Positions 6,534 to 42,857 of a DNA stretch of 42,857 nucleotides are shown here, one piece after another. The first letter of the stretch is position 1. Each line of letters begins with the position of its first letter. A model generated the notes under the pieces. That model was not told where the DNA came from. It searched no databases and saw only the letters and a list, made by a program, of their open reading frames with translations. The position numbers were made by a program, and so were the translations under genes. Source of the stretch: Bacteroidales bacterium (lineage in GTDB: Bacteria > Bacteroidota > Bacteroidia > Bacteroidales > UBA932); assembly GCA_017471045.1 (NCBI GenBank), contig JAFUWZ010000058.1, positions 1 through 42,857 of the forward strand. The letters are read 5' to 3'.

Positions 6534-6613
6534 GCCGGGACTGCCGGTCTTTCAGAGGTGCAAGTGATTTTACCCTTCGGGGAATGCACCTCTGAAAGAC
6601 CGGCAGTCCCGGC
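6534..6613. repeat. Perfect 29-bp inverted repeat (long hairpin)
   Basis: The arm at 6534-6562, starting GCCGGGACTGCCGG, is repeated in perfect reverse complement at 6585-6613 around a 22-nt spacer. It lies 17 nt beyond the stop of the minus-strand hydrolase gene and about 97 nt upstream of the thiamine promoter. It could terminate hydrolase transcription, but a 29-bp stem without mismatch and without a flanking U-run is unusual for a terminator; a palindromic mobile repeat is an alternative. The remaining 6438-6533 holds nothing else I recognise. Confidence 0.85.
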
Positions 6614-37077: not shown

Positions 37078-37102
37078 ATGCCCGGTCAGGCCGGGCATGA
37101 CG
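37078..37102 (+). repeat. Palindromic intergenic repeat
   Basis: ATGCCCGG and CCGGGCAT flank the 5-nt loop TCAGG (37078-37098), followed by GACG. It fills the gap between tolC and hlyD. The layout GCCCGG-loop-CCGGGC-ATGACG is a familiar dispersed repeat type, and its ATGAC end matches the GTCAT end of the 27-bp repeats further along the operon. Confidence 0.65.
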
Positions 37103-37110
37103 AAAGGATT

Positions 37111-38367
37111 ATGGATAAGATTATCAAGAAGGAAACAGGTTGGCGGGTAGCTTTCACCAAGAAAGCACTGCCCTGGTGGCTGGGTGCGCTGCTGCTGGTG
37201 TTCATCGTGTATCTGATTGCGCGTCCTAACAACAAGACGCTACGGGTGGACAAGGACAGCATTACGGTGTCGATTGCCGTGAAGGGCGAATTCAACGACT
37301 ATATCCGCATCAGCGGACGGGTGCAGCCGATGACGACCATCCAGCTTTCGCCCCAGGAAGGCGGTATCGTGGAAAAGATTCTCATCGAGGAAGGTTCCCC
37401 GGTGAAAGCCGGCGATGCAATCCTTATCCTGAATAACGACAACCTGGACCTTCAGATCCTGAACTCCGAGGCGGAGTTGGCCGAGAAGGAGAACATCCTC
37501 CGCAACACGCAGATCCAGATGGAGCAGCAGAAACTGGACGTGCGGCAGAATGAACTGGAATACGGCACCAATGTGGACCGTCTGAAACGCGCCTACGAGC
37601 AGCAGAAGGCCCTGTATGAGGACAAGCTCATCGCCAAGGAAGACTATTTGAAGGCCGAAGAGGATTACCGCCTGGCACTCCAGAAGTACGAACTTATCCG
37701 CGAACGCAGCAAGCAGGACAGCCTCTATCGCGGCACCCAGATTGACCGGATGGAAGAGTCGTTGGAGAACATGCTCCTGAACATGCAGATGATCCGCAGG
37801 CGCAAATCGAACCTCATCGTAAAGGCGCCTATCGACGGCGAGCTGGGCCTGCTGGACGTAGTGCTGGGCCAGAGCATCGCCAGCGGCACAAAAATCGGCC
37901 AGATCAATAGCGTAGGTGTCTATAAGGTGGAGGCTCAGATTGATGAGCACTACATCGACCGCGTTGTGGCAGGACTGGAGGCCACCTTCGAGCGCCAGGG
38001 CGAAACCTATTCCACCTCCATCCGTAAAGTGTATCCGGAGGTGCGTGACGGCAAGTTCAAGGCCGATTTCAAGTTTGACGGCGTCCAGCCCGACAACATC
38101 CGCAGCGGCCAGACCTACTACCTGAATCTCCAGCTGGGCCAGAGCGAAGAGGCGGTCATCATCCCCCGCGGCACCTTTTATCAGAAAACCGGCGGAAAAT
38201 GGATTTACGTTGTTAACAAAGACGGCAGCAAAGCCGTCAAAAGAGAAATCCGCATCGGCCGCCAGAACCCGCAATACTACGAAGTTCTGGAAGGTCTGGA
38301 GCCCGGCGAGAAGGTGATTATCTCCGGGTATGAGACTTATGGGGATTCAGATGTGCTGGTATTTTAA
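37111..38367 (+). CDS. Periplasmic adaptor (membrane fusion protein, HlyD/MacA type)
   Basis: A 418-residue adaptor. One N-terminal membrane anchor (ALPWWLGALLLVFIVYLIA), then a barrel/lipoyl half (IRISGRVQPMTTIQLSPQEG, GGIVEKILIEEGSPVKAGDA), a long coiled-coil hairpin about 110-235 (EAELAEKENILRNTQIQMEQ onward), the second lipoyl half (LIVKAPIDGELGLLDVVLGQ), and beta-barrel/membrane-proximal domains ending LEPGEKVIISGYETYGDSDV. It would link the FtsX-type pump to TolC. ATG 37111 (MDKIIKK) was chosen because the in-frame ATG 37078 lies in the palindromic repeat and adds an unrelated MPGQAGHDERI. Confidence 0.9.
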   Translation: MDKIIKKETGWRVAFTKKALPWWLGALLLVFIVYLIARPNNKTLRVDKDSITVSIAVKGEFNDYIRISGRVQPMTTIQLSPQEGGIVEKILIEEGSPVKAGDAILILNNDNLDLQILNSEAELAEKENILRNTQIQMEQQKLDVRQNELEYGTNVDRLKRAYEQQKALYEDKLIAKEDYLKAEEDYRLALQKYELIRERSKQDSLYRGTQIDRMEESLENMLLNMQMIRRRKSNLIVKAPIDGELGLLDVVLGQSIASGTKIGQINSVGVYKVEAQIDEHYIDRVVAGLEATFERQGETYSTSIRKVYPEVRDGKFKADFKFDGVQPDNIRSGQTYYLNLQLGQSEEAVIIPRGTFYQKTGGKWIYVVNKDGSKAVKREIRIGRQNPQYYEVLEGLEPGEKVIISGYETYGDSDVLVF

Positions 38368-38369
38368 TT

Positions 38370-38396
38370 TGTCATTCTGAGCGAAGCGAAGAATCT
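38370..38396 (+). repeat. 27-bp repeat, copy 1 (left of GIY-YIG gene)
   Basis: The unit starts TGTCATTCTGAGCGAAG and ends CGAAGAATCT; ATTCT and AGAAT form a short stem. It begins 2 nt after the hlyD stop and is a perfect inverted partner of copy 2. Confidence 0.9.
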
Positions 38397-38410
38397 AAAT
38401 TTTTGATATT

Positions 38411-38704
38411 ATGTACAATACATACTATGTTTATATTATGTCAAGCCTGAGTAACACAACCATCTATGTTGGTGTTACCAATGACTTGGAACGAAGAGTG
38501 TCCGAACATAAATCTGGTATTATATCAGGTTTCACTCAGAAGTACAACTGCAAAAAACTTGTATACTTTGAATCTTTCTCTGATATAGAACAGGCAATTG
38601 ATAGAGAAAAACAATTGAAAGGGTGGGTCAGAAAGAAGAAAGATGCTTTGATTGATTCAATGAATCCCGAAAGGAAAGATTTAGCTGCAGAATGGAGTAT
38701 ATAA
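38411..38704 (+). CDS. GIY-YIG nuclease-domain protein between inverted repeats
   Basis: A 97-residue stand-alone GIY-YIG domain. The GIY part is YYVYIM (5-10) and the YIG part is TIYVGVTNDLERRVSEHK (17-34), giving the two catalytic Tyr, Arg28/29 and His33; the metal-binding Glu is Glu66 in AIDREKQLKGW. All key residues are present, so DNA cleavage is credible. It lies within an exporter operon but is plainly AT-rich beside GC-rich neighbours, and perfect 27-bp inverted copies of a repeat lie 14 nt before its ATG and 1 nt after its stop. This suggests acquisition as a unit. Relatives are annotated UPF0213 or excinuclease-like, with no proven role. Confidence 0.9.
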   Translation: MYNTYYVYIMSSLSNTTIYVGVTNDLERRVSEHKSGIISGFTQKYNCKKLVYFESFSDIEQAIDREKQLKGWVRKKKDALIDSMNPERKDLAAEWSI

Positions 38705-38705
38705 T

Positions 38706-38732
38706 AGATTCTTCGCTTCGCTCAGAATGACA
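38706..38732 (-). repeat. 27-bp repeat, copy 2 (right of GIY-YIG gene)
   Basis: Exact reverse complement of copy 1, starting 1 nt after the GIY-YIG stop. With copy 1 it bounds a 363-bp unit (38370-38732). Confidence 0.9.
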
Positions 38733-38755
38733 ATACTTCGCTCAGAATGACAATA
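38716..38755 (+). repeat. Tandem 20-bp duplication of the repeat end
   Basis: CTTCGCTCAGAATGACAATA at 38716-38735 is repeated exactly at 38736-38755, directly before the permease ATG at 38758. The second unit is a partial extra copy (17 bp) of the 27-bp repeat plus AATA, possibly a scar of insertion or slippage. Confidence 0.88.
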
Positions 38756-38757
38756 AT

Positions 38758-41106
38758 ATGAAGCTATTCAGAAAGACGGGCGTTTCGACGCTGATTAATG
38801 TGCTGGGGATGAGCGTGGCGTTTGCTGCGGCGATGATCCTGATGGTGCAGGTGAAGTGGGACGCCAGCTACGACAGGAACTTCAAGGGGCACGGGAAGGT
38901 GTTCCGGACGGAGAACAACTGGATAGACGACGGACTGTTCAATACGGGAATCAGCCGGCCGGTCATTGAGTTGGTGCGGACCGCCAGTCCAAACATAGAG
39001 GCCGTTGGAACCATCCATGAGACAGGGCAGCAGATCTTCTACAAAGAAGGGGACAAGGAATCGGCCATCACCATCCCTTCCGTACAGGTGGACAGTACCC
39101 TGTTATCGGTCTTCCCCTTTGAATGGGTGGAGGGTTCGGCAAAGGAATTCACCACCCAGGGGACGGCTGTCCTCAATGAGGCCTTTGCCAAAATGATTTT
39201 CGGTGAAGAGAGTGCCGTGGGCAAATTGCTTTTGACGGGAGACAGCGACCCGTGCCGCATCGTCGGGGTCTTCAAAAACTCGCCCCGCAACTATAGCATG
39301 CACTATGGCATCATTATAAATATGGGAGACTGGCTCCTGCACGACGTAAACGAATGGTCTTTTGCCGCTTATTTAAAACTGAATGATCCCTCTCAAGTTC
39401 AGGAAACCGAATCCGCCATTTTGGATGCACTGGCACCCGATTTATTTGGAGAATCCTCTGACGAAGAGATTGCAAAATATCGCAACGGCTTCCGTATCAG
39501 CAACTTGCATGAATCCCACTTCGAGCGGGATGTCCGGGCAAACATCGTGAGTGCCAATAAATCCATTACCATCACGCTGGCCGCCATTGCCATCCTGCTG
39601 ATTCTCATTGCCATCATCAATTTCATCAACTTCGCCTTTGCAGAAATTCCTTTCCGCATCAAGAGCATCAATACCCGGAAAGTCCTGGGTGAAGGGCGCG
39701 GGTCACTCATCGGCAGGCAGCTGCTACATGCCGGAGTCATCGCCCTGGTGGCTTTTGCTCTGGCCTGCCTGATTGTCCACGTGGTGAGTGGAACATCTTG
39801 GGCGTCGTATGTGTCGGACTCCATTGCGCTGAAGGATAATATCGGCATTCTGGCCATTACGCTGGGTATTGCCCTTCCTTCTGCAGTGGTTGCCGGAATT
39901 GCTCCCGCACTGTATTCCACCTCCCAGCCGGCGGCATTGGTGCTCAAAGGTTCCTATGGGACCAGTGTGAAAGGCCGCAGTCTGCGAAATGCCCTGGTAG
40001 CCTTACAATTCATCCTTTCCTTCGTGTTCATCCTGATGGCGTTGTATGTGAACGTGCAAACCAAGTTCATGGCCCGCAAGGAAATGGGCTTCCCGCAGGA
40101 GAATATCGTTCAGGTGTGGTGCGGCTACTATGCCGGCGGGGCGCACGATGCGGTGAAAGACAAACTGCTTCAGAACCCGTCCATCGTGGACGTAACCTTT
40201 GCCGATAACCTCATCGTCTCCGACGCAAAGATGGGTTGGGGGCGCACGGGAGATGACGGAAAGCAGGTCTTCATGGAAGTGCTTCCGGTCACGGACGACT
40301 TTGTGAGATTCTTCGGCCTACAGATCGTGGACGGACGGGATTTCCAGGAGTCCGACAACCAGAGCTATGCAGGGTGTTTCATCGCCAACGAGACCTTTAT
40401 CCAGAGTTTTCCCCAGTATCACGTGGGCAGCTTCATGGGCGGCCATGTGGACGAGGCGGAGATTGTGGGCATCGTAAAGGACTTCCATTTCAAGTCCCTC
40501 AAGCATCCGATGGGCCCGCTGGTGCTTTATAACTGGGGGAAGACGCAGTGGCGCAATTTCAGCGTGATGTACGTAAAAATGGCTCCCGGTGCTGATTTCA
40601 AGGAGGTTTCGAAGTATATCAAGGAAGTTGTCTGCACCTATGATCCTTCCCGCCAGCCGGACCAGGTAAACGTGCGTCATCTGGACGAATGGATTGAGAA
40701 TATGTACCAGAGTGAGCAGTCGCTGGGTAAGCTCATCACCATCGCCTCCATTGTGGCCCTGCTGATTGCCATCATCGGTATCATCGGCCTGGTGTTCTTT
40801 GAAACGCAGTTCCTGAAGAAGGAGATTGCCGTGCGGCGCGTAAACGGTGCCACGGTGGGAAGCATCCTGCAGATGATCAATAAGAAGTACATGGTAATGG
40901 CCGGAGTCAGCTTTGCTGTGGCCGCTCCGTTTGCATGGTGGATTATGTCGGTATGGCGCAAGGGCTTTGCTTATCAGGCGCCCATCCCGGTGTGGATATT
41001 TGTGATGGCGCTGCTACTGGTCGCGGCCATTACCCTGGTCGTAGTGATTCTCCAGAGCTGGAGAGCGGCCAATGCCAACCCGGTAGAATCGTTGAAAAAT
41101 GAATAG
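38758..41106 (+). CDS. FtsX/MacB-type ABC transporter permease
   Basis: A 782-residue permease with two FtsX modules. Helix one (TLINVLGMSVAFAAAMILMV) is followed by a periplasmic MacB-type core (about 35-270, with VEGSAKEF, TAVLNEAFAKMIFGEESAVGK), three helices about 275-395 (ITLAAIAILLILIAIINFIN and on), a second N-helix about 415-435, a second periplasmic region, and three C-terminal helices with IGLVFFETQFLKKEIAVRRV and NPVESLKNE at the end. Such proteins are mechanotransmission pumps, not channels, working with the ATPase, adaptor and TolC. Its TAG stop runs into a copy of the 27-bp repeat. Confidence 0.9.
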   Translation: MKLFRKTGVSTLINVLGMSVAFAAAMILMVQVKWDASYDRNFKGHGKVFRTENNWIDDGLFNTGISRPVIELVRTASPNIEAVGTIHETGQQIFYKEGDKESAITIPSVQVDSTLLSVFPFEWVEGSAKEFTTQGTAVLNEAFAKMIFGEESAVGKLLLTGDSDPCRIVGVFKNSPRNYSMHYGIIINMGDWLLHDVNEWSFAAYLKLNDPSQVQETESAILDALAPDLFGESSDEEIAKYRNGFRISNLHESHFERDVRANIVSANKSITITLAAIAILLILIAIINFINFAFAEIPFRIKSINTRKVLGEGRGSLIGRQLLHAGVIALVAFALACLIVHVVSGTSWASYVSDSIALKDNIGILAITLGIALPSAVVAGIAPALYSTSQPAALVLKGSYGTSVKGRSLRNALVALQFILSFVFILMALYVNVQTKFMARKEMGFPQENIVQVWCGYYAGGAHDAVKDKLLQNPSIVDVTFADNLIVSDAKMGWGRTGDDGKQVFMEVLPVTDDFVRFFGLQIVDGRDFQESDNQSYAGCFIANETFIQSFPQYHVGSFMGGHVDEAEIVGIVKDFHFKSLKHPMGPLVLYNWGKTQWRNFSVMYVKMAPGADFKEVSKYIKEVVCTYDPSRQPDQVNVRHLDEWIENMYQSEQSLGKLITIASIVALLIAIIGIIGLVFFETQFLKKEIAVRRVNGATVGSILQMINKKYMVMAGVSFAVAAPFAWWIMSVWRKGFAYQAPIPVWIFVMALLLVAAITLVVVILQSWRAANANPVESLKNE

Positions 41107-41166
41107 ATCCTTCGCTAACGCTCAGGATGACAAAGCGGCTGTCATTCTGAGCGAAGCGAAGAATCT
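41105..41166. repeat. Inverted pair of 27-bp repeats, no gene between
   Basis: 41105-41132 is a minus-orientation variant (AGATCCTTCGC...AGGATGACA) and 41140-41166 a plus-orientation copy identical to copy 1, separated by 7 nt. In the variant both stem arms have changed together (ATCCT with AGGAT instead of ATTCT with AGAAT), keeping the base pairing. The stop codon of the permease (TAG 41104-41106) overlaps the first two bases of the repeat. Confidence 0.88.
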
Positions 41167-41204: not shown

Positions 41205-41885
41205 ATGATTACTGTTTCCAATCTTTCCAAGATCTTCCGGACGGAAGAAATCGAGACCACGGCACTCAACGGCGTTTCTATTGAAATCAAGGACGGCGAG
41301 TTTGTCGCTATCATGGGGCCTTCGGGCTGCGGCAAATCCACGCTGCTGAATATCCTGGGTCTTTTAGACAATCCCACCAGCGGCAGCTACAAACTCCTGG
41401 ATACCGAGGTGGCGAACCTCAAGGAGAAGGAGCGTACCAAGTTCCGCAAGGGCAACATCGGATTCGTGTTCCAGAGCTTCAACCTCATTGACGAACTCAA
41501 TGTCTATGAGAACATCGAGTTGCCGCTTCGCTACCTGAATATCAGCGCGGCTGAGCGCAAGCAGAAGGTCACGGACATCATGAAGCGGATGAACATCAGC
41601 CACCGCGCCCAGCACTTCCCGCAGCAGCTTTCCGGCGGTCAGCAGCAGCGCGTAGCCATTGCCCGTGCCGTCGTCGCAGGCCCGAAGCTGATCCTCGCCG
41701 ATGAGCCCACCGGTAACCTGGACTCCAAGAACGGCAAGGAGGTGATGGACCTGCTGAGGGAACTGAACTCCGAGGGTACGACCATCGTGATGGTAACCCA
41801 CAGCCAGAAGGACGCGGCGCAGGCGCAGCGAACGATTGACCTGTTTGACGGGCAGATCGTTTCAGATGTGAAGAACGAACTGTAG
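41205..41885 (+). CDS. ABC transporter ATP-binding protein (MacB/LolD type)
   Basis: A 226-residue ATPase: Walker A IMGPSGCGKSTLLNILGLLD, Q-loop GFVFQSFNLIDELNVYENIE, signature QLSGGQQQRVAIARAVV, Walker B LILADEPTGNLDS, and switch His in IVMVTHSQ. The sequence NLDSKNG and the overall length place it with the MacB/LolD/FtsE group that drives FtsX-type permeases. It lies between the two permease genes, so it likely powers a heterodimer or either homodimer. Its TAG stop overlaps the start of the next repeat copy. Confidence 0.95.
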   Translation: MITVSNLSKIFRTEEIETTALNGVSIEIKDGEFVAIMGPSGCGKSTLLNILGLLDNPTSGSYKLLDTEVANLKEKERTKFRKGNIGFVFQSFNLIDELNVYENIELPLRYLNISAAERKQKVTDIMKRMNISHRAQHFPQQLSGGQQQRVAIARAVVAGPKLILADEPTGNLDSKNGKEVMDLLRELNSEGTTIVMVTHSQKDAAQAQRTIDLFDGQIVSDVKNEL

Positions 41886-41952
41886 ATTCTTCGCTGCGCT
41901 CAGAATGACATAGTTGGCTCCGTCCTGTCATTCTGAACGAAGCGAAGAATCT
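41884..41952. repeat. Second inverted pair of 27-bp repeats, no gene between
   Basis: A minus-orientation copy at 41884-41910 (AGATTCTTCGCTGCGCTC...) and a plus-orientation copy at 41926-41952 (TGTCATTCTGAACGAAG...) are separated by 15 nt. Each differs from the exact unit by one base in the loop. The ATPase stop (TAG 41883-41885) overlaps the first copy. Confidence 0.88.
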
Positions 41953-41980
41953 GAGATAGCAAAGAATCGAACAGCAATCC

Positions 41981-42857
41981 ATGAAGAGTTATCTGAAATT
42001 CCTCTCACGCAACAAGTTGTACACAGCTATTGAAGCGGTGGGGCTGGCGGTGAGCCTGGCGTTTGTCATTATCATCGGCAGTTATGTGTGGCAGCAGTTT
42101 TCGGTGACGCGGGAGCACCCGGACCGGGAAAGAGTTTATGTACCCGGAACGCCGGGATTCCCTGCGCTTACCTACGGTTTCCCGGAGGCTATCGGGGATA
42201 TTCCGGAAATAGAGTCCGTTTCCAGGATGTGCAATGTGGTCGTACATCCTGTCATTCGGGGAGAGCAGACGGATGCGGAGAGCGTCGGCGTGGAACCGGA
42301 GTTCTTTGAGATTTGTCCCCAGTTCCGTTTTTTGGAAGGCTCTGCAGAGGTGCTTTCCGCCGAGTCCAATGTCATTATATCGAATTCCTTTGCCAGAAAG
42401 CACAGCCTGTCGGTAGGTGATGCGCTTGACATCGGTGGCAGCAGCTATACCGTCGGTGCCATCTTGGAGGACCTGAAAAGTACGGTCGTCATACCTTATG
42501 ACATATTCCGCAATGTCGCTGTTTACAAAGGCGCCTGGCAGCCGTTCGACAACTACGGCAGTACGGTCACGCTGCTCAAGGTCCGTCCCGGTACAGACAG
42601 GAAAGTCCTGTATGACAAATTGGAAACCGTTTGCAAAGACGTTTATGCAGGCATCTATGGGCAGTCTTTCTTTAGGCATCTGGAACTATCGCGTTACGAC
42701 GAATTGTTTTTCAAGGAGACCGAGGGATTTTTCCGGCACGGAGACAAAGGGACGCTCAGGGTGCTGACGCTGGTTGGGCTCCTGCTGCTTCTTTCGGCCA
42801 TCCTGAACTATATCAACCTGTCTGTCGCACTCACCGGGAAGCGGGCAAAGGAAATGG
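41981..42857 (+). CDS. Second FtsX/MacB-type permease, cut by the window edge
   Basis: The frame is open from ATG 41981 to the end, giving 292 residues. It starts MKSYLKFLSRNKLYTAIEAV with a first membrane helix GLAVSLAFVIIIGSYVWQQF, followed by a MacB-type periplasmic core (YVPGTPGFPALTYGFPEAIG, EVLSAESNVIISNSFARKHS, LDIGGSSYTVGAILED) and a second helix LVGLLLLLSAILNYINLSVA at about 265-285. It is a paralogue of the permease at 38758 and the next member of the same operon. The remaining helices lie outside the window. Confidence 0.88.
   Translation, partial: MKSYLKFLSRNKLYTAIEAVGLAVSLAFVIIIGSYVWQQFSVTREHPDRERVYVPGTPGFPALTYGFPEAIGDIPEIESVSRMCNVVVHPVIRGEQTDAESVGVEPEFFEICPQFRFLEGSAEVLSAESNVIISNSFARKHSLSVGDALDIGGSSYTVGAILEDLKSTVVIPYDIFRNVAVYKGAWQPFDNYGSTVTLLKVRPGTDRKVLYDKLETVCKDVYAGIYGQSFFRHLELSRYDELFFKETEGFFRHGDKGTLRVLTLVGLLLLLSAILNYINLSVALTGKRAKEM

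Follow-up and report, generated by a model that had tools for sequence, protein, structure and literature searches.

The window, as we call the whole stretch of DNA analysed (42,857 nucleotides of a Bacteroidales bacterium contig), contains an exporter gene cluster with a short GIY-YIG nuclease gene, framed by inverted repeats, in its midst. The features of this locus are as follows.

38370..38732, no strand: whole unit of 363 bp, bounded by the outer ends of its two REPs, its ends common to units at other sites
38369..38397, plus strand: left CGTC-type REP, TGTC head outward, TTGTCATTCTGAGCGAAGCGAAGAATCTA, a perfect inverted copy of the right REP
38411..38704, plus strand: GIY-YIG nuclease gene, 97 aa, Pfam PF01541 E = 5.7e-19, conserved residues near-invariant
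38705..38733, minus strand: right CGTC-type REP, head outward, tail abutting the stop codon, from the inverted-repeat match
38716..38755, minus strand: head half of the REP partly duplicated in tandem (20 nt, direct repeat D1), beside the ftsX start
37078..38367, plus strand: HlyD-type membrane fusion gene, left insertion flank (Pfam HlyD)
38758..41106, plus strand: MacB/FtsX-type permease gene, right insertion flank (Pfam MacB_PCD/FtsX)
41141..41166, plus strand: extra exact REP copy in the gap separating ftsX from the ABC ATPase gene, from a core search of the window
41884..41909, minus strand: extra REP copy with 1 mismatch (core search), half of a heads-inward pair with 41927..41952
41927..41952, plus strand: extra REP copy with 1 mismatch (core search), other half of the heads-inward pair with 41884..41909

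An earlier note on this DNA had described an AT-rich gene of 97 residues between hlyD and an ftsX gene of an exporter operon, framed by exact 27-bp inverted repeats as a unit of 363 bp. The repeats are real and somewhat longer, with 29 nt per arm at 100% complementarity; the left one ends 13 nt before the nuclease ATG, and the right one follows directly on the stop codon. The location also holds, with a Pfam HlyD match upstream and a MacB_PCD/FtsX match downstream, in a cluster that additionally carries an OEP gene and an ABC ATPase gene (Pfam). The nuclease gene has 34.4% G+C, as against 58.0% for the window, 55.0% for hlyD and 53.5% for ftsX, and its GC3 is 35.1%, as against 74.6% and 69.3% for the two neighbours. 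Exact inverted repeats of at least 20 nt within 1 kb occur twice in the window, as the pair flanking the nuclease gene and as a second pair at 6534-6613 with arms of ~29 nt.

Further CGTC-type REPs, whether of this class or of others, lie at other joints of the exporter cluster (37078-37101, 41107-41131, 41141-41166 and 41884-41952), heads-inward pairs included. The REP at 37078-37101 overlaps the start of the hlyD frame, whose opening MPGQAGHDE is probably repeat and not protein. A minus-strand open frame at 41596-41982, containing CHSERSEES and FASFRMT, is translated repeat sequence, of a kind likely to be annotated as spurious small proteins.

The encoded protein belongs to the GIY-YIG superfamily, as judged from its profile match and its conserved Tyr, Tyr, Arg and Glu. 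Among the 192 relatives that reach 75 aa, Y19 and G21 are each conserved in 190/191, R29 in 189/192, H33 in 192/192, E66 in 191/192 and N85 in 191/191. A full catalytic set had been ascribed to the gene at the outset; these positions are near-invariant, and which of them are catalytic is judged by analogy with the superfamily. At the profile level its sequence relatives are UPF0213-type GIY-YIG proteins (PDB 1zg2, E 5.7e-8; 1ywl, E 5.9e-6) and the UvrC N-domain (1yd6, E 0.01). The window's genome has one further GIY-YIG domain, within a 616-codon frame taken to be UvrC. A part in a defence system is unlikely, PADLOC having returned no match for three proteins, and so is a phage homing gene: one relative used as query gave 0 matches in 50,697 phage records, and the family had two loci in the viral collection.

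The repeat is recognisable by its form. A superfamily of CGTC-tagged REPs was described in 2013 by Di Nocera, De Gregorio and Rocco; that survey includes Neisseria dRS3 (CGTC-1) and Rickettsia RPE-4/6 and lists Neisseria, Sinorhizobium meliloti and Azospirillum lipoferum among the hosts (PMC3733652). As given there, these REPs have a CGTC, TGTC or CCTC head, a stem of 8-9 bp opening with A-T and T-A, and a short tail that is mostly CCA; they occur mostly as inverted dimers, in five phyla, and "apparently" lack a dedicated transposase (PMC3733652). The window repeat begins with TGTC, one of the unpaired heads of this superfamily, and ends in CT. In form it is a CGTC-type REP, of the superfamily reported without an enzyme, a point that the earlier note had missed. 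Its 26-nt core occurs five times in the window at ≤3 mismatches (0 in 100 dinucleotide shuffles) and, like other CGTC REPs, it is multicopy, with 13 genomic copies at ≤3 mismatches (reversed control, 0); inverted dimers are present in genome G261.

Around the nuclease genes of the window and its relatives we collected 321 distinct repeats, with heads TGTC (210), CGTC (91), TCTC (11) and CCTC (9), a head set that the detector demanded, and with tails CT in 211 and CC in 82. Their form, with this head and an A-T stem start, is that of the published CGTC REPs; the window class stands apart in its tandem GA mismatches and CT tail, most repeats in the survey fitting CCA (PMC3733652). The stem of the window class starts with A-T and has 5 + 2 pairs broken by GA/GA; fully paired classes are found at other loci. 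For the 27-nt repeats that have GA at positions 10-11 (45 in all), the detector left the inner pair 12-18 unconstrained; this pair is A-T in 17, G-C in 14 and C-G in 11 and hence paired in 42/45. The outer five pairs, which the detector selected for, are 99.6% paired, as against 24-30% with the partner slid by 1-2 columns. GA and GA are opposed in 35/45 of these repeats and GNA loops are present in 28/45. The GCGNAGC mini-hairpin is an unusually stable DNA. With ViennaRNA DNA folding the window's repeat showed no extra stability over shuffles (z -0.01), nor did a TGCGAG-class repeat (z 0.39), whereas a fully paired class did (z -4.29).

We then examined how regularly such repeats accompany the nuclease. 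A relative is present in 21/199 genomes of the same family and, at E 1e-10, in 214/395 genomes of the same phylum. From 203 gene matches in 193 loci, nine were dropped (flank <120 bp or duplicate sequence), leaving 194 genes, some of them broken or partial. Titled genome records supplied 79 loci from the best 80 of at least 550 relatives and therefore lean towards the query, and the phylum-sample loci were drawn from best-scoring matches. An outward CGTC-type hairpin lies within 250 bp on at least one side of 146 of the 194 genes, upstream in 108, downstream in 132, on both sides in 94 and on neither in 48, so that most relatives are flanked on at least one side, in favour of the earlier note; 30/194 genes have no hairpin in either orientation within that distance. 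In the window's own family the pairing is weaker: outward hairpins flank 6 of 24 genes on both sides and are absent from 10, some of which (L020 and L026, for example) show long inverted repeats.

The arrangement is oriented and local. For the titled-record set (78 genes, drawn from the best 80 of at least 550 relatives), outward hairpins within 150 bp reach 2.39/kb upstream and 2.31/kb downstream, inward ones 1.20/kb and 0.26/kb, and the density falls to ~0.1/kb at 1-6 kb. A relaxed detector (200 bp) found hairpins upstream of 44, downstream of 57 and on both sides of 38 of these 78 genes, as against 13, 26 and 4 of 379 control ORFs taken from these loci, for which intergenic length was unmatched; a strict detector gave 23, 23 and 21 of the 78 as against 11, 10 and 2 of the 379. 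Applied to all 194 genes, the strict detector found both sides occupied in 39, and seven scrambled heads each gave 0/194. An ungapped inverted-repeat score of at least 16, a measure that underestimates loci with unequal loops, was reached by 65/194 genes and by 43/1500 mismatched pairs. None of four Y1-transposase genes and none of three UvrC-type frames (one a 19-codon fragment) had outward CGTC hairpins.

The pairing crosses phyla. Within the same 78 genes (best 80 of at least 550), both sides carry hairpins in Bacteroidota (19/47), Bacillota (9/14), Pseudomonadota (3/4), Nitrospirota (2/2), all four unplaced loci and single loci of Spirochaetota, Myxococcota, Chloroflexota and Ignavibacteriota; Actinomycetota and Fusobacteriota are one-sided and Elusimicrobiota has no outward hairpin. 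A plasmid collection held 33 records with a relative, of which 17 were taken, the other 16 being apparent duplicates by organism, score and place, except H32. A CGTC-type hairpin lies within 350 bp in 16/17 of these loci, Novosphingobium being the exception, and outward hairpins lie on both sides in 11/17, with the S. meliloti locus counted as two-sided through an ambiguous palindromic copy. At the Neisseria gonorrhoeae locus of this collection the nuclease gene is accompanied by CGTCATTCCCGCG-type repeats, and the pairing is likewise seen in Sinorhizobium meliloti, Azospirillum lipoferum and the cyanobacterium Planktothrix. Three of the plasmid-labelled records (NZ_CP119140.1, NZ_CP119142.1 and NZ_AP026896.1, 2.2 to 4.9 Mb, from Neisseria gonorrhoeae and Aeromonas caviae) are chromosome-like in size. 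Elsewhere, nuclease genes cluster within a few kb (L224, L210 of genome G251 and L182 of genome G264), and G251 has 13 matches genome-wide. This recurrence across many bacterial phyla makes the nuclease a strong candidate for the long-missing enzyme behind the spread of CGTC REPs.

The class of the repeat follows the nuclease protein and not the genome. The two REPs at a locus have 6.76 of 8 stem letters in common, as against 4.90 between loci, a difference reached in 0/2000 permutations (94 genes). On a FastTree protein tree of 112 common-class genes the REP class changes 39 times, as against a mean of 77.6 and a minimum of 71 in 200 shuffles. Between genomes, a match of 7-8 letters is found in a fraction of 0.08-0.16 of the pairs at 40-55% protein identity, of 0.44 at 65-70%, of 0.76 at 70-79%, of 0.61-0.64 at 80-89% and of 1.00 above that (8 pairs), with 0.28 in a sparse 30-35% bin. 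Within genomes, REP classes differ in 12/13 divergent pairs (48-68% identical) and agree in 13/13 close pairs (≥89%), these pairs coming from few source genomes and being non-independent.

Copy numbers of individual classes were counted in 22 genomes at ≤2 mismatches. In genome G583 the TCCCGCG class has two copies, and in G463 the TGCGAG class has two; in each case both flank a nuclease gene. These genomes also hold 35 and 16 GA-type copies, respectively, and two and six nuclease matches in all. Where it flanks a nuclease gene, the TCCCGCG class otherwise reaches 106 (G214), 24 (G209) and 33 (G261) copies; it also occurs where the nuclease genes examined have another class (G358, 322; G278, 10; G034, 1; G268, 1) and has 0 copies in the other 14/22 genomes. 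The TGCGAG class flanks a gene in G039 (60 copies), G577 (16), G408 (5) and G463, has two copies in G561, and has 0 in the other 17, including G320, where a TGCGAG-type repeat of other length flanks the gene. The six nuclease-negative genomes of the set have 0 copies of both classes. A TTCGA-class pattern was found in 0/22 genomes, an uninformative count given a fixed pattern length unfit for varying loops.

The limits of the unit were defined by comparison with other sites. With a 1351-bp query, similarity spans 38370-38732 in G619, 38369-38732 in G616 and 38362-38734 in G620; these units are ~70% identical, lie in different flanks and end within 8 bp of the REP outer ends, in agreement with the bounded unit that had been proposed. 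A genome of another genus, G034, has both hlyD and the unit in common with the window (81% over 1760 bp; 87.6% for the unit alone), and similarity stops at the start of the next gene. Junctions free of the insert, which the earlier note had suggested looking for between hlyD and ftsX, were found in six genomes of the same genus among 22 loci examined, with gaps of 3, 3, 22, 9, 3 and 9 bp; the ftsX match at one of them, L249, is weak (67% over 115 bp), and strict orthology of these gene pairs is unproven because the operons have paralogues. In A. lipoferum a nuclease gene with a REP dimer on either side lies between sufB and sufC, which are 617 bp apart, and in four other Azospirillum genomes the sufB-sufC gap without nuclease measures ~32 (read from the sequence), 87, 91 and 129 bp. 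By eye, no CGTC repeat was seen at the six hlyD-ftsX junctions or in these sufB-sufC gaps. At L253 and L254, of the same genus, other CGTC-like repeats follow hlyD, with no nuclease in the stretch examined. Common ends at different sites, together with junctions without the insert in relatives, are as expected of a mobile element with terminal inverted repeats. By eye, no target-site duplication was seen at the few hlyD-ftsX, other-site and Azospirillum junctions inspected, and no within-species excision was seen.

Repeat pairs of the same form also occur without the gene. In G261, 15 stretches resolved into 12 gene-less dimers (one sharing the stretch of the gene unit), the gene unit and three short perfect palindromes. 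The 12 dimers are head-outward with gaps of 18-22 nt, the same arrangement as the gene-bearing dimer. The short dimers (L312-L324) share further, partly inverted sequence beyond their heads that is absent from the gene-bearing unit, so that a longer composite repeat may exist. On two Rhizobium plasmids (L301 and L329), two REP dimers and one, respectively, lie in direct repeat beside the nuclease gene; we did not count this strain difference as movement because plain recombination between direct repeats suffices.

Repeats and nuclease are associated at the level of genomes, but a good many nuclease-free genomes have repeats too. The repeats are found in 36/199 genomes of the family sample. G129 and G189 have 91 and 78 copies and no nuclease relative at E 0.001; a Pfam search of 17 repeat-bearing genomes without a clear nuclease gave matches confined to long frames of 287-700 codons in 13 and none in four, G129 having in addition one weak match of 170 codons. 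In the phylum sample, at least five GA-type repeats are present in 115/214 nuclease-positive and 38/181 nuclease-negative genomes, an odds ratio of 4.4 with kinship ignored (reversed-pattern control, 0.18 per genome); 18 nuclease-negative genomes have at least 20 copies. Of 18 genera with both kinds of genome, nuclease-positives are higher in 11, lower in three and equal in four. Such genomes may have lost the nuclease and kept its repeats, or the gene may fall in a gap of a draft assembly. The earlier note had counted two findings against its own proposal, relatives mostly without flanking repeats, and repeats abundant where the nuclease is lacking and never polymorphic with it: the former is not what we see, most relatives being flanked, but the latter applies in part, some nuclease-free genomes being rich in repeats and L253 and L254 having repeats after hlyD with no nuclease seen there.

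The closest known parallel is the REPtron, in which a small enzyme gene, that of a RAYT/TnpA-REP HUH tyrosine transposase, likewise lies between REPs of the GTAG type. The gene-less REP dimers found elsewhere are known as REPINs. Unlike REPtrons, the window unit has an unrelated GIY-YIG nuclease in place of the HUH tyrosine transposase, and its repeat is headed TGTC and not GTAG. The RAYT enzymes of REPtrons are repeat-specific according to the 2013 survey, which presents CGTC REPs without an associated enzyme (PMC3733652). In the window unit the space between the two repeats is taken by a GIY-YIG gene. A second parallel is offered by selfish nuclease genes. Free-standing GIY-YIG homing endonuclease genes of the I-TevI type spread with their own target; theirs is a split site, whereas the window unit is bounded by two whole inverted repeats, one relative of its nuclease as query drew no match in 50,697 phage records, and the family has two loci in the viral collection. 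Among titles and abstracts, with subscription journals and preprints outside the scope, no link between GIY-YIG genes and REPs was found, and "GIY" is absent from the main text of three papers citing the CGTC survey (PMC6006769, PMC12306157, PMC5896051). The repeats have the form of a known superfamily and the protein a known fold, and their pairing as one cross-phylum unit appears undescribed in the literature searched.

These data lead us to propose a small mobile unit of 363 bp, a GIY-YIG gene within a head-outward pair of CGTC-type REPs, whose nuclease most likely acts as cognate enzyme to this REP class; we consider this probable. The REP/RAYT-like logic with a GIY-YIG enzyme, put forward before, gains support from the pairing, the empty junctions and the recurring ends; recognition, cutting, movement and strand chemistry are what we infer from them. 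The nuclease would recognise the REP hairpin or its YGTC-AT head and would nick or cut at the recognised REP. The unit, or gene-less REP pairs, would then be copied into new intergenic sites with the aid of host replication or repair. GIY-YIG enzymes hydrolyse DNA, and we know of none with strand transfer or strand joining, which is why insertion would lean on the host. The short REP dimers would stand to the unit as REPINs stand to RAYTs, as its non-autonomous derivatives. Several results weigh against this proposal: the nuclease-free genomes rich in repeats, the 48/194 relatives (10/24 in the window's own family) without an outward hairpin, the 322 copies in G358 of a class other than that beside the nuclease gene examined there, the enrichment of inward hairpins upstream, the other REP classes and further nuclease genes of G583 and G463, and the ordinary folding stability of the window's repeat.

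The reading with the best support is that of an autonomous unit with a nuclease directed at its own repeat, and several others were weighed against it. The nuclease could be a homing parasite that cuts pre-existing REP dimers, its gene being copied into their spacers while something else spreads the REPs. GIY-YIG nucleases are classic homing enzymes, the gene occupies a dimer arrangement also found gene-less, and many genomes have REPs without the nuclease, as do the stretches after hlyD at L253 and L254. Such an origin is nevertheless unlikely in our judgement, since the gene-flanking classes of G583 and G463 occur nowhere else in those genomes at ≤2 mismatches, although other classes are present, REP class tracks the protein and not the genome, and the insert-free hlyD-ftsX and sufB-sufC junctions appear devoid of CGTC repeats. 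Movement of REPs and nuclease gene alike by another enzyme, such as a Y1/RAYT-type transposase, has some footing in the Y1_Tnp matches of 18/22 genomes tested (one weak match in the window's genome), but the four Y1 genes examined lack outward CGTC hairpins, four repeat-bearing genomes (G189, G183, G039 and G121, some incomplete) have no Y1 match, and the 2013 survey found no CGTC-flanked tyrosine transposase gene (PMC3733652); we give it a slim chance.

Slimmer still is the chance that the two are passive neighbours, a foreign nuclease gene having settled in intergenic spots where REPs also gather. REPs are indeed intergenic and common, and some control ORFs have them too, but passive landing is made unlikely by the enrichment over ORFs of the same loci (intergenic length unmatched), the orientation bias and the matching classes of the two flanks, as well as by units that end at REPs. 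We regard as the most improbable of these accounts a host-useful module, in which the nuclease would serve repair or regulation while the REPs would provide binding sites or stop transcription. It would suit a right repeat placed directly after the stop codon, and REPs often lie downstream of genes according to the survey (PMC3733652); the patchy presence within the family, the multiple copies per genome (up to 13) and a base composition foreign to the window speak against it.

Taken further, the unit would represent a new class of mobile element, in which a GIY-YIG nuclease on its own, without any transposase, moves both itself and gene-less pairs of CGTC REPs by recognising a YGTC-headed DNA hairpin and is the missing enzyme of CGTC REPs across about ten phyla; for this broader proposal we see the arguments as evenly poised. 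CGTC REPs are widespread, as dRS3 in Neisseria, RPE-4/6 in rickettsiae, repeats in rhizobia and, here, in many Bacteroidota. The describers of 2013 asked what moves these repeats and found no enzyme (PMC3733652), and a cognate nuclease is a directly testable answer. If true, it would provide a second enzyme chemistry for REP dispersal, unrelated to HUH transposases, would explain many genes named only "GIY-YIG nuclease family protein", and would offer a paired enzyme-hairpin system open to in vitro study.
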